Source: Acidobacterium sp. S8
GTDB lineage: Bacteria > Acidobacteriota > Terriglobia > Terriglobales > Acidobacteriaceae
Length of the DNA: 64,000 nt
Assembly (NCBI RefSeq): GCF_009765985.1
Contig: NZ_LMUM01000027.1
Location: 268,435 to 332,434, forward strand
Reading direction: 5' to 3'
Shown: positions 26,071-59,315 of the stretch, piece by piece
Layout: each line of letters opens with the position of its first letter
Position numbering within the stretch: position 1 is the first letter of the stretch
Notes under the pieces: model-generated
Told to the model about the DNA's origin: nothing
The model's database searches: none
The model's input: the letters and a program-made list of their open reading frames with translations, nothing else
Translations under genes and position numbers: made by a program

Positions 26071-26219
26071 GTCATTCTGAGGAGAGAAGCGACGAAGAAT
26101 CCAGAGAATATTTCGTGTGCTGTGGCTGGTTAAGGTTTCTCATGAGAAACCTTGGCGTCACGACAGCCGCCCGCTATCTGTGGATTCTTCCCCTTCACTG
26201 CGTTCAGGGTCAGAATGAC
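26071..26219. repeat. Family C MITE-like inverted repeat, long copy
   Basis: A 149-bp element bounded by GTCATTCTGA and TCAGAATGAC, with inner inverted arms GAAGAATCCA (26094-26103) and TGGATTCTTC (26181-26190). A perfect 22-bp palindrome occupies 26132-26153 near the centre. It fills most of the gap between the isomerase and pntB stops, so it could also act as a bidirectional transcript end. A 77-bp relative is at 55552-55628. Confidence 0.8.
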
Positions 26220-55637: not shown

Positions 55638-56006
55638 TCATGGAATGAAGAATGAAGTGGATGACCCACATCTCGAAGAGATGTGGGTTTCAAAAGTCAG
55701 GATTTCACCGGGTGCCCCATCCTTTCGCGCTGTCCGGTGTTTAGCAAGAAGGGCGCGCTGCATATACCATCCTGCAAGCAACACCATCGCTCCGACACAC
55801 AAAACTATCATCGCTTCTCTTAAATAAGCAGCAGTTGAAACCGAAACTCCGACTCCGCCAATCAACGCAACATAGGCGGCAATGCACATCGGGCATTTCG
55901 GAATCAACACCAGCAGCACGCCGGAAATGACACCACCCGAGGCGGATCGCCAGAGACCGCGCCGCGCTGCTGCGGCCTTGTGACCGCAGCAGGCATGCGC
56001 GTTCAT
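55638..56006 (-). CDS. MerC-like small membrane protein with repeat-derived C-terminus
   Basis: A 122-aa protein with three hydrophobic segments (GVISGVLLVLIPKCPMCIAAY, in parts; ALIGGVGVSVSTAAYL; MIVLCVGAMVLLAGWYMQ). The CPMC pair in the first helix and the N-terminal ACCGH motif recall MerC/MerT-type metal transport proteins, but identity is uncertain. The last 30 residues (after ALLAKHRT) are encoded inside or beside family A repeat DNA, so the original stop was probably lost. The start overlaps the DUF899 gene stop by 4 bp. Confidence 0.65.
   Translation of the reverse strand: MNAHACCGHKAAAARRGLWRSASGGVISGVLLVLIPKCPMCIAAYVALIGGVGVSVSTAAYLREAMIVLCVGAMVLLAGWYMQRALLAKHRTARKDGAPGEILTFETHISSRCGSSTSFFIP
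55708..55729. repeat. Family A repeat, left-arm fragment
   Basis: CCGGGTGCCCCATCC followed by TTTCGCG, identical to the left arm of the copy at 24856; the right arm is missing. It falls within the 3' end of the MerC-like reading frame on the other strand. Confidence 0.7.
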
Positions 56007-56800
56007 TCGTCCCCCTCGCAGCCGCAGGCCATCTTCTTCGGTGCCGCTACATAACGCCCCTGCTCATTTACTGAGCCGCCGGCTTCATAACGATCATGGT
56101 GCCGCACCCAGTCCGTCAGGTTGTAGCGAGGCCCATTTTCATTGCGGCCCTTCGGCGTAATGTCGAGATACATGTAGGCTCCCACGAACATCTCATCTCC
56201 ACGCCCATGCGTCGAGTAGGTATGGAAGATGTCGCCACTTGAATCGCGATAAAAGACGCTGTCGCCGGAAAGCTCTTCGCTGAATGCGGAAATGAAATTG
56301 TAGTTGTAAGAGACTTGTCCGCTTGCGATTTGCTCTGGCGTATATGACACATGAAAGTCATAGTTGAAATCGCTGCCGAACGACGATACCCACTTGAAAT
56401 TCCAGCCCATGCGCTTTCTGAATGCCTCGATCTCGGGAATCGGAGCCCGCGATACAGAAACGAAGCTCACGTCATGGTGTTCCAGGTGTGCAAGCGTCCC
56501 ATCGATATGGTCCGACTTGAACGAGCACCCGACGCAGCCTTCTTTCCATCCCGGGCCGAGCATGAAGTGTTGAACAATGAGCTGACTGCGCCCATCAAAC
56601 AAATCCGCCAAAGTCAGCTTGCCATCTGGCCCTTCGAATTCGTAGCTCTTTTCAACACGCACCCACGGCAACTCGCGCCGTTCGCGCCGCAGTGCATCGA
56701 GTTCGCGGGTTAACTCTTTTTCCCGAGCCAGCAGTGCTCTGCGGGCTGCCAGCCATTCCGTTTCTGACACTATTTTGTGGCTTACGCTCATCGTGGTCAT
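56003..56800 (-). CDS. DUF899-family thioredoxin-like protein
   Basis: A 265-aa DUF899 protein. The N-terminus is a charged helix (ARRALLAREKELTRELDALRR, in parts) followed by a thioredoxin-like domain with CX2C (GCVGCSF, ~90), SDHIDGTLAHLEHHDVSFV and GWNFKWVSSFGSDFNYDFHVS split. The end has an extra Cys cluster (KKMACGCEGDE) absent from the paralog. No signal peptide. It is coupled to the MerC-like gene by ATGA overlap, suggesting a redox or metal-handling role together; not proven. Confidence 0.85.
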   Translation of the reverse strand: MTTMSVSHKIVSETEWLAARRALLAREKELTRELDALRRERRELPWVRVEKSYEFEGPDGKLTLADLFDGRSQLIVQHFMLGPGWKEGCVGCSFKSDHIDGTLAHLEHHDVSFVSVSRAPIPEIEAFRKRMGWNFKWVSSFGSDFNYDFHVSYTPEQIASGQVSYNYNFISAFSEELSGDSVFYRDSSGDIFHTYSTHGRGDEMFVGAYMYLDITPKGRNENGPRYNLTDWVRHHDRYEAGGSVNEQGRYVAAPKKMACGCEGDE

Positions 56801-56893
56801 TCGCAGATTCTCCTTTTAGGAACTTATTCAGATTTGTGATCCTCTCCGCAGTGCTAAAGCATCACGGAGAGGCGATCTCACAGGTTTTCATCT

Positions 56894-57622
56894 CTATCTA
56901 CTGGTTTTGTAGCGGTCGTGATGCCGAACCCACGCCATCGGGTCGGGGCGCAGGTGTTCTTCATCGCGGCCCTTCGGTACTAGATCAAGGAAGTGATAGG
57001 GCAGCAACATCCCTTCGCCACCGCGCGCATAAGAAGAGTAAGTGTGAAAGACATTTCCCGCTTCGTCTTTGTAAAAGACGCTGGTGCCGGTCGCCTCATC
57101 GGCAGGGAAGCCTTTCGTATTGTAGTTGTAATCAAATTGGCCGCTCCGCATCTCCTCCGGCGTAAAGGAAACGCGATAATCAAAGTTGAAATCGCTGCCG
57201 TACGACGAAGCCCATTGAAAGCTCCATCCCATGCGTTTTTTGAACTCGGTGATCTTCTCAAGCGGCGCGCGTGAAATCGCCATCAGCGTCACATCGCGCT
57301 GCGCCAGATGTACCACCGCGCGATCAAAGTGATCGGCTGCCATCGAGCACCGCGGGCATCCTGCGTCCCACTCCGGCCCGAACATGAAGTGATACACAAT
57401 CAACTGACTCCGCCCATCAAAAAGCTCAGCTATCGTCTTTTGACCTTCAGGTGTTGCGAAGAGGTAGTACTTTTCAACCTTTACCCAAGGCAATGCAAGC
57501 CGTTTCTTGCTTAACGCATCATGTTGTCGTAAAAGTGCTTTTTCTTCGGCCAGCAGGGCCTTGCGTGCTTCGACCCAATCCTGCTCTGAGACGATTTCGT
57601 GATTTTCCGTAACTACACTCAT
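56894..57622 (-). CDS. DUF899-family thioredoxin-like protein, paralog
   Basis: A 242-aa paralog of the next gene downstream. ATG 57622 has GGAG at 6-nt spacing. It shares LPWVKVEKYYLF, FDGRSQLIVYHFMFGP and the CX2C in GCPRCSMAADHFD, then GWSFQWASSYGSDFNFDY. It lacks the Cys-rich tail. The 93-bp gap between the two genes suggests one transcript. DUF899 proteins have no settled function. Confidence 0.85.
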   Translation of the reverse strand: MSVVTENHEIVSEQDWVEARKALLAEEKALLRQHDALSKKRLALPWVKVEKYYLFATPEGQKTIAELFDGRSQLIVYHFMFGPEWDAGCPRCSMAADHFDRAVVHLAQRDVTLMAISRAPLEKITEFKKRMGWSFQWASSYGSDFNFDYRVSFTPEEMRSGQFDYNYNTKGFPADEATGTSVFYKDEAGNVFHTYSSYARGGEGMLLPYHFLDLVPKGRDEEHLRPDPMAWVRHHDRYKTSR

Positions 57623-57732
57623 GACATTCTCCATAAGATAGATAAAAATCCACAGTTTAAGACCAAGCGGTGCCTACATTAGCTTTCGCTGTTGTATGGC
57701 CCGTCTCTCATCCTTTTCGAAGACGATTGCTG

Positions 57733-58440
57733 TTACTTTAGCTGCGCCTTTACCGCCAGCGTGCGATCCACAGGAATCACCGTGATGGCGAATGGCGTTC
57801 CCGCATCGTCGGAAATGACTGGCAAGCCGCTGTTTCCCTCATTGCCGCCAAGCATGGCGTTTGTGTAATACGGCGTGTAGACCATCATGTGTGGACGCCA
57901 TGCCCCTGCAGGTCCCAGCTTCTGGTCTGCAGAGAGCATGTAGGCAAAGCCGACGGTCTCCATTCGTGGCAATTCGCCGCGGGAATAGGCTGCCTCAATC
58001 GCATCTGCGATTTCGTCAGGTCCTTTGCCTTCCATGGCAAGGCGTGCCCTCATTTCCTGGTATGGCATGACCGTGCGGACCGCCACCGGGTTGAAGCAGA
58101 TGGGCGCGCGCGTCTGCGGATCATACACAAGATTGCGATTTGCTGACGGCGTAAACGTCGGCGCCCCCCAGCCGCGCATCACCATGCACACAAAACCGTT
58201 GTCTCCTTCTTTGGCAACTTTATAACCAGACGCCGTAAGTAATTTAATCGTCGCGTGCGCTGAAATATTATCTGGAGCTGCGCTTCTCGCCAGTGCTATT
58301 TCGGCTTCTGGCGACATCATGTACTCAGGTAGCGGAGGATACTTCGGAGCCTGTGCCAGTGCGCCTGCAATCCAGAAACAGGTCATCAGGGTGACCGGCA
58401 GAACGGCGCGCATTATATTTCTCGTGGCGTTGTGCCTCAT
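57733..58440 (-). CDS. Exported protein of unknown function (235 aa)
   Basis: Unrecognised. It has a signal peptide (MRAVLPVTLMTCFWIAGALAQ) and no membrane helix after it. The mature part is mixed (EAEIALARSAAPDNISAHA, DNGFVCMVMRGWGAP, AAYSRGELPRMETVGFAYML). Two Cys (FVCMV, PICFN) may form a disulfide. It overlaps the SRPBCC gene by 4 bp and so belongs to the ArsR-SRPBCC operon. Confidence 0.78.
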   Translation of the reverse strand: MRHNATRNIMRAVLPVTLMTCFWIAGALAQAPKYPPLPEYMMSPEAEIALARSAAPDNISAHATIKLLTASGYKVAKEGDNGFVCMVMRGWGAPTFTPSANRNLVYDPQTRAPICFNPVAVRTVMPYQEMRARLAMEGKGPDEIADAIEAAYSRGELPRMETVGFAYMLSADQKLGPAGAWRPHMMVYTPYYTNAMLGGNEGNSGLPVISDDAGTPFAITVIPVDRTLAVKAQLK

Positions 58441-58904
58441 ATCCTCTCCATTCGCCGCTCAATACCAGCCGTTACATTGCTGAAGAAGTTGTCCCAGCCC
58501 TTATTCACCTCAAGGCCGTCCATCAGATGGTGTGGAATCAATCCAATCGCACGGTGCGAAAACTCGATGCGCGTAAGGCCGCTCTCTTCGTTCAGCCGGA
58601 AGATCACGTGGTTGACCGCAGGCGCTGACATGAACATGGGTCCATGCATCTCCAACAGCTCAGGCGGTTTGATTGACTGGACGATACCCCAGCAATGTCC
58701 AGTGTTGCTGCCGAAATCGCGATACCATCGCCCACCTGGCCACGCTTCCAGAGTCAGGTTGTGACGCTCTTTGGTTGGCGACTCATTCAGAGGACCCATG
58801 TTTTCTAACACCGTCTCCCAGACGATATCGATAGAAGCGGCAATCTCGATCTCGCGAACAACCTCAAGTATTTCCACCGCTTGCTCTGATACTTTCGTGC
58901 TCAT
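58437..58904 (-). CDS. SRPBCC-domain protein
   Basis: A 155-aa START-like protein (VREIEIAASIDIVWETVLEN at the start; GPMFMSAPAVNHVIFRLNE). AAGGAGGAG precedes ATG, and it overlaps the ArsR stop by 4 bp. Arrangement: ArsR, SRPBCC, exported unknown, all coupled. Only about fold-level similar to the SRPBCC protein at 49.7 kb. Ligand unknown. Confidence 0.85.
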   Translation of the reverse strand: MSTKVSEQAVEILEVVREIEIAASIDIVWETVLENMGPLNESPTKERHNLTLEAWPGGRWYRDFGSNTGHCWGIVQSIKPPELLEMHGPMFMSAPAVNHVIFRLNEESGLTRIEFSHRAIGLIPHHLMDGLEVNKGWDNFFSNVTAGIERRMERI

Positions 58905-59278
58905 TTCTCCTCCTTGTCTCTTCCGATCTGATTTTCGCGGGCAATCCGCTCCGCCATCTTCTGCTCGGCGCGTATCTTGATCCTGTCGAGCTGATGGGTC
59001 CAGTAGCGCTCATATACCTTCACCCAGTCATGCACAGGCTTCAACTCCTTTGCGTTAAGACGGTAAAGGCGCATCTGTCCGCGCTTGCTCACTGTCACCA
59101 CGCCCACCTTGCGCAACACGCCAAGATGCTTCGAAACGGCAGGCTGCGGCAGCTTGAGTCGCAGCACAACGTCGCCCACAGCATGCTCTCCGCCGTCTGA
59201 CAGCATGCCGATAATCTCCCGCCGGCGCGGTTCAGCAATCGCGTTAAAAACATCGGCGGTAGTTGCTGCTCTTGCCAT
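58901..59278 (-). CDS. ArsR-family regulator, autoregulated operon head
   Basis: A 125-aa winged-helix regulator (DVFNAIAEPRRREIIGMLSD, DVVLRLKLPQPAVSKHLGVLR, VTVSKRGQMRLYRLN). No CVC metal box. The charged C-terminus (YWTHQLDRIKIRAEQKMAE) is typical of ArsR proteins paired with SRPBCC domains. Its promoter contains a perfect 20-bp palindrome between and over the -35 and -10 boxes, indicating repression by its own product. ATG lies only 9 nt after the -10 box and has no ribosome site. Confidence 0.9.
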   Translation of the reverse strand: MARAATTADVFNAIAEPRRREIIGMLSDGGEHAVGDVVLRLKLPQPAVSKHLGVLRKVGVVTVSKRGQMRLYRLNAKELKPVHDWVKVYERYWTHQLDRIKIRAEQKMAERIARENQIGRDKEEK

Positions 59279-59287
59279 GAAGAGAAC

Positions 59288-59315
59288 TGTATATTCCTAT
59301 ATAGGAATATGTCAA
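59288..59315 (-). promoter_or_regulatory. ArsR operon promoter with embedded perfect palindrome
   Basis: On the - strand, TTGACA (59310-59315), 16-bp spacer and TATACA (59288-59293). A perfect 20-bp palindrome (59291-59310, half ATATTCCTAT) covers the whole spacer and touches both boxes. Transcription should start within a few nt of ATG 59278, predicting a leaderless or nearly leaderless mRNA. Confidence 0.8.

Follow-up and report, generated by a model that had tools for sequence, protein, structure and literature searches.

A conserved palindrome inside an arsR promoter predicts a self-repressed operon with a leaderless first gene in Acidobacterium sp. S8

The lambda cI gene transcribed from PRM and the tetR gene of Tn1721 are leaderless autoregulated repressor genes, in which the mRNA begins at the start codon. 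Within the ArsR family, Rv2034 of Mycobacterium tuberculosis is an autorepressor that acts through a 20-bp palindrome by its start, where the dimeric protein leaves a footprint printed as -30 to +3 (PMC3338718). The available portion of the same paper reports that Rv2034 does not respond to the metals tested, that half a palindrome still binds and that there are other targets; a leaderless start is not discussed in that portion (PMC3338718). Surveys of leaderless genes recognise them by a TA-like signal some 10 bp upstream of the start (PMC3160421, PMC12340547), and such genes account for 13.3% on average in three acidobacterial genomes, with the word Planctomycetes not found in the accessible main text of that survey (PMC3160421).

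The DNA analysed here, referred to as the window, is a stretch of 64,000 nucleotides from Acidobacterium sp. S8 (contig NZ_LMUM01000027.1, positions 268,435 to 332,434). It contains an arsR-family gene with the following features, listed from the promoter into the downstream genes:

59310-59315, minus strand: -35 hexamer TTGACA, from direct reading and a promoter scan
59291-59310: perfect 20-bp palindrome ATATTCCTATATAGGAATAT, the proposed ArsR operator, conserved at homologous loci
59288-59293, minus strand: TATACA, the -10 hexamer of a preliminary description of this DNA, with a 16-bp spacer and 9 nt to the ATG
59286-59291, minus strand: TACAGT, the likeliest -10 hexamer, 18 bp after the -35 and 7 nt before the ATG
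59278-59281, minus strand: predicted transcript start, at the A of the ATG or no more than 3 nt ahead of that base, placed from the -10 position and the start spacing of homologues
58901-59278, minus strand: arsR-family repressor gene, 125 aa, above cut-off for HTH_5 and NF033788
58437-58904, minus strand: AHSA1/SRPBCC gene, 155 aa (AHSA1, 25.4 bits; cut-off 22.1)
57733-58440, minus strand: gene for a 235-aa protein, probable third operon gene, its start overlapping the AHSA1 stop
56894-57634, minus strand: DUF899 gene, 246 aa (308.8 bits), possible operon member
56003-56800, minus strand: second DUF899 gene, 265 aa (323.2 bits), possible operon member

The -35 element, palindrome, -10 element and ATG are packed into 38 bp of the minus strand. 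The preliminary description had placed a perfect 20-bp palindrome over the arsR promoter, and re-cutting the minus strand returns the same coordinates exactly. Direct reading likewise confirms that TTGACA and TATACA are separated by a 16-bp spacer (TATTCCTATATAGGAA, 59309-59294, minus strand) lying entirely within the palindrome, and that 9 nt (GTTCTCTTC) separate TATACA from the ATG (59278-59276), with no SD-like run found upstream of that codon in the window. The choice of promoter elements holds for the -35 and gives way for the -10: the promoter scan retains the same TTGACA and prefers TACAGT to TATACA, each of which is an imperfect -10 box. With TACAGT 7 nt before the ATG and no SD, the gene has the arrangement of a leaderless gene, in which the -10 sits about 6-7 nt before the start, and at the sequence level the palindrome overlaps the gene's own promoter, as expected of an ArsR/SmtB operator. 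An in-frame TAG forms the seventh codon upstream of the window's arsR ATG and no ATG, GTG or TTG lies between the two, so this ATG is the first possible start. The palindromy by itself is just mildly unusual, because, of 100 copies of the window generated by a first-order Markov model, 3 contain a perfect palindrome of at least 20 bp, and the window itself holds a second, longer one; at the local scale, 4 of 20000 Markov copies of the surrounding 180 bp reach a 20-bp palindrome. That other palindrome, 22 bp at 26132-26153 (AAGGTTTCTCATGAGAAACCTT), lies in a frame reading HSEERSDEES, a stretch that resembles a dispersed repeat element. For a putative arsR-promoter element, the decisive support is conservation.

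Conservation was assessed in 94 homologous loci, comprising the best 80 of 441 loci from a scan of genome contigs and 14 from whole genomes (about 50% identity or more, the window included), from which L081, L100 and L106 were left out as lacking an aligned start. The operator consensus ATATTCC-N-ATAT-N-GGAATAT, allowing up to five mismatches in 18, is present in 90 of the remaining 91 loci (L096 is the sole miss), a raw count of related homologues that does not represent independent events. No two of the 90 share an identical 60-nt upstream sequence; L004, L118 and L119 are repeats of loci already counted, and L017-L032, at 46% identity or less, stand outside the counts and carry, by eye, mostly other promoter sequences. 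The same mismatch limit is reached by 25 of 4700 mononucleotide-shuffled copies of these regions, a control that somewhat favours the consensus because the consensus was derived from the same sequences; a pattern search on DNA alone, presented below, is the fairer test. According to their record titles, which can err for metagenome bins, the loci come from Acidobacteria, Planctomycetes, Chloroflexi (Anaerolineales), Fibrobacteres, Actinobacteria and others, and include the cultured Edaphobacter modestus (L037), E. aggregans (L039) and E. lichenicola (L048), as well as cultured strains of Blastopirellula marina (L068), Zavarzinella formosa (L079), Gemmata sp. (L094) and Gordonia zhenghanii (L109).

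The promoter is conserved together with the operator. An exact TTGACA at 16-18 bp is found in 64 of the 90 operator loci, and one with at most one mismatch in 81, while the -10 at its fixed position has both A2 and T6 in 69 and lacks A2 or T6 in 21. Among the 87 loci with a -35 within two mismatches, the spacer is 16 bp in 77, 17 bp in four, 18 bp in five and 20 bp in one; the other three (L107, L110, L111) keep the palindrome and have no good -35 (3-4 mismatches). Because spacer lengths vary while the palindrome stays put, both operator and promoter appear to be under selection. Conservation is high from the -35 through the -10 and low outside, with hardly any upstream of the -35. Between the two arms, matching is clearly above expectation at position 5 alone (77 loci against 68.2 expected), and L065, L066, L076 and L113 carry ATATGCC-type half-sites, with G in place of T at this position in both arms.

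The start codon, ATG in 86 of the 90 loci and GTG in four, is locked to the -10 element. Counted from the fixed-position -10, the start follows after 5-11 nt, with 7, 41, 16, 10, 10, 5 and 1 loci at 5, 6, 7, 8, 9, 10 and 11 nt, respectively (mode 6, 41/90). Where the ATG is 8-11 nt away, 21 of 26 loci have a TAnnnT shifted by 2-4 positions, compared with 12 of 64 others (Fisher p 5e-8), and the difference persists when one protein is kept per cluster at 90% (19/24 vs 9/59, p 5e-8), 75% (10/12 vs 6/48, p 6e-6) and 65% identity (4/5 vs 4/27, p 0.009). Since most loci with a distant ATG carry the shifted TAnnnT, the start codon moves with the -10, which initiation of transcription at this point would predict. 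When the -10 is allowed to slide, TAnnnT is found in 86 of 90 loci, with a gap of 6 nt in 45 and 7 nt in 24; these gaps lean towards 6 nt through the picking of the TAnnnT nearest to that distance, and the unbiased figures are the fixed-position distances and the comparison of 21/26 with 12/64. In 42 of the 90 loci, the reading frame upstream of the aligned start holds a further ATG, GTG or TTG before it reaches a stop (the window has none), and because of these codons the annotated start there rests on protein alignment. The first and second genes of the loci also differ in how they meet the ribosome. Pairing to the anti-SD reaches -4.4 kcal/mol or better in 12 of 85 first genes and 78 of 85 second genes, the latter with starts picked purely by nearness to the arsR stop; gene 2 pairs more strongly than gene 1 in 76 of the 85, and the median gain over each sequence's own shuffles is 0.9 kcal/mol for first genes and 3.6 for second genes.

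These observations bear on the best surviving alternative, namely that the palindrome is an operator and the main transcript starts upstream, giving an ordinary leader and translation without an SD. There is room for such a promoter in the 141 bp of intergenic DNA upstream of arsR, and the imperfect -10 of the window also speaks for it. An upstream start would, however, leave unexplained why the start codon moves together with the -10 in 90 loci, why hardly any sequence is conserved above the -35 and why gene 1 mostly lacks the SD pairing that gene 2 has, and we consider it unlikely. The leaderless start predicted in the preliminary description, in comparison, gains support from both the spacing of 5-11 nt and the SD contrast.

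The product of the window's arsR gene is a member of the ArsR/SmtB winged helix-turn-helix proteins, scoring 40.5 bits for HTH_5 (cut-off 22) and 74.8 bits for NF033788, an NCBIfam ArsR/SmtB subfamily model (cut-off 55); for the SdpR autorepressor subfamily NF033789 it reaches 54.7 bits, below the cut-off of 100. Membership in this superfamily would fit a metal-responsive operon of the ars/smt type, but the 125-aa protein contains no cysteine, as is true of 78 of the 90 homologues, which excludes a cysteine metal site for the window ArsR. It is also far under the cut-offs of the metal-sensor equivalog models, the genes downstream encode AHSA1 and DUF899 proteins and no metal exporter or reductase, and the analogue Rv2034 is unresponsive to tested metals in the available text of its description (PMC3338718), making a metal-responsive operon very unlikely. 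The operon structure previously described is borne out at the first junction, where the AHSA1/SRPBCC gene overlaps the arsR stop by 4 nt (ATGA) and has the SD AAGGAGGAG ahead of its start. The window gene order is arsR, AHSA1, the 235-aa protein, DUF899 and DUF899. The 235-aa protein has, by eye, a probable signal peptide and is probably secreted; it has no Pfam match, and in a search of the 94 loci its gene was found solely in the window's and in none of the other 93. A gap of 98 nt separates it from the first of the tandem DUF899 genes, which occupy 56003-57634 behind the operon. Across the homologous loci, an SRPBCC-like segment lies within 250 nt downstream in 80 of 94 and in 14 there is none, as judged by a profile derived from 67 of these loci. 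Flanks of about 1.5 kb show DUF899 downstream in at least 38 of 94, a minimum because the window's own copy lies beyond that distance, and no papers pairing DUF899 with ArsR were found in the open-access literature.

How specific the operator is to arsR genes was read from searches of whole genomes. The -35 plus palindrome pattern, applied to DNA alone with up to three mismatches, matches in 63 of 299 genomes of the class, and a reversed control pattern has no match in the same 299. All 30 of the sites taken as loci, from among those listed, directly precede an ArsR start: 29 were read with ArsR on the same strand, 28 of them 6-9 nt away and L160 14 nt away, and the thirtieth (L157) precedes an ArsR GTG. 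A degenerate palindrome with up to two mismatches gives 13 sites in 12 genomes hand-picked from 61, mostly for holding a close homologue, and 11 of the 13 lie immediately before an arsR homologue, with positions matched by eye; the reversed degenerate palindrome is absent from these 12. An extra site in one of the genomes (G003, two mismatches) reads by eye as coding sequence and was taken as chance. Together with the operator in 90 of 91 homologous arsR promoters, the 30 of 30 sites found from DNA alone support the predicted autorepression of the operon.

In its own genome, where the preliminary description had proposed searching for further copies, the palindrome occurs within three mismatches at the window and at one other place. 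This is an unlinked second operator-promoter (L002:1494-1576, G000:C29) with TTGACA, an 18-bp spacer and TATATA, its palindrome differing from the window's by two mismatches. It resembles the window site over about 34 bp only and is followed by a terminator-like hairpin with TTTT (fold z-score -1.9) and then a DUF1569/DinB_2 gene. Because of this hairpin, and because no such operator site lies upstream of the DUF1569 homologue in G031, no regulon is claimed. Five other ArsR hits are present in the genome. The paralogue on C26 has the ATATGCC variant with its start 9 nt after the -10; by eye, the one at C27:441285 (L116) has its ATG 6 nt after the -10-like TATGGT and, within its promoter, a perfect palindrome of different sequence, AACCATAACCATATGGTTATGGTT, and the one at C27:111415 has another perfect palindrome and, if the second in-frame ATG is used, a start 8 nt after a -10-like hexamer. 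Two own-genome paralogues thus appear to share the layout with different palindromes, and those on C17 and at C29:503097 show no clear fit to it by eye.

Binding of the palindrome by a regulator other than the adjoining ArsR draws on the recognition-helix comparison, in which no residue tracks the change at position 5 (four ATATGCC-type against 72 T-type proteins, 14 mixed ones set aside), a result that weighs neither way on the main reading. Against a separate regulator stand the placement of the site, which is mainly before arsR in both the 12 chosen genomes and the 30 loci, and Rv2034, which binds its own palindrome in the portion of PMC3338718 available; records from several phyla would also be unlikely to share another dedicated regulator. 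We judge a separate regulator to be very unlikely. Chance origin of the palindrome as a by-product of an AT-rich promoter, for which the Markov windows and the second long palindrome might speak, has a negligible probability and is refuted by operator conservation, given 90 of 91 loci against 25 of 4700 shuffled regions and no match to the reversed pattern in 299 genomes.

The palindrome is thus very probably the putative site at which the repressor shuts off its own operon. From the sequence evidence, we consider it highly likely that these 38 bp make up a full autoregulatory start cassette, with a self-repressed operator in the spacer, a leaderless arsR and a downstream operon. Mechanistically, an ArsR-family dimer would bind ATATTCC-N6-GGAATAT in the spacer of its own sigma70-type promoter and exclude RNA polymerase from it. 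A signal, probably non-metal, would release ArsR from the operator; our guess is an organic ligand or a chemical stress that the SRPBCC and DUF899 proteins deal with. We infer that transcription after release begins at the ATG or 1-3 nt before it and yields a leaderless repressor mRNA, and the AHSA1/SRPBCC gene, probably with the 235-aa and DUF899 genes, would rely for translation on SD sites of their own or on coupling.

A bolder reading, which we offer tentatively, is that about 45 bp of operator, promoter and start form an indivisible cassette in a cross-phylum ArsR-AHSA1 clade, and that starting without a leader belongs to the autorepression switch itself, in that transcripts reading through from upstream would not be translated. 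Selection would then preserve both the palindrome's place within the spacer and the coincidence of start codon and transcript start, and the cassette would have survived descent or transfer among bacteria that differ in their use of leaderless genes. The high-confidence reading of the element already provides a candidate operator for the widespread ArsR-AHSA1(-DUF899) operons, on which little was found in the open-access literature. The motif is specific enough to locate such regulators in DNA sequence alone and to verify the start codons assigned to them, and the loci, as a large natural collection, allow one to ask why the leaderless start of a repressor gene is kept across phyla.

No description of a conserved promoter-operator-start cassette was found in the open-access literature among the matches listed, and matches to fragments of the operator motif in PMC12457610 and PMC4509764 are primers. 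The leaderless-gene surveys are genome-wide, and their available text mentions no operator in the spacer (PMC3160421, PMC12340547). Rv2034-Rv2036 is the closest tested analogue of the window operon, as far as the available text of PMC3338718 describes it. Both have an ArsR autorepressor (predicted in the window), a 20-bp palindrome just before the start and an overlapping downstream gene on the same strand, with a polyketide_cyc2 domain in the Rv2034 operon and of the AHSA1/SRPBCC type, directly behind arsR, in the window. The Rv2034 half-site, CCGTAAGT-N4-ACTTACGG, differs from the window's, and, on the reading that the printed positions are numbered from the start codon, its palindrome sits closer to the start by about 9 bp (PMC3338718). 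SmtB, CzrA and NmtR belong to the same superfamily as the window ArsR with weak sequence similarity (E 2e-4 to 5e-4), and the window protein differs from them in lacking cysteine, in its operon partners and in falling far below the metal-sensor models. The lambda cI and tetR genes, in turn, have protein families and operator layouts unlike those of the window. The parts are therefore familiar, and among the matches listed it is the strictness and spread of the cassette that are unusual; the window operon itself is well supported as a predicted autorepressed ArsR-SRPBCC operon joined to a leaderless gene, both of known kinds.
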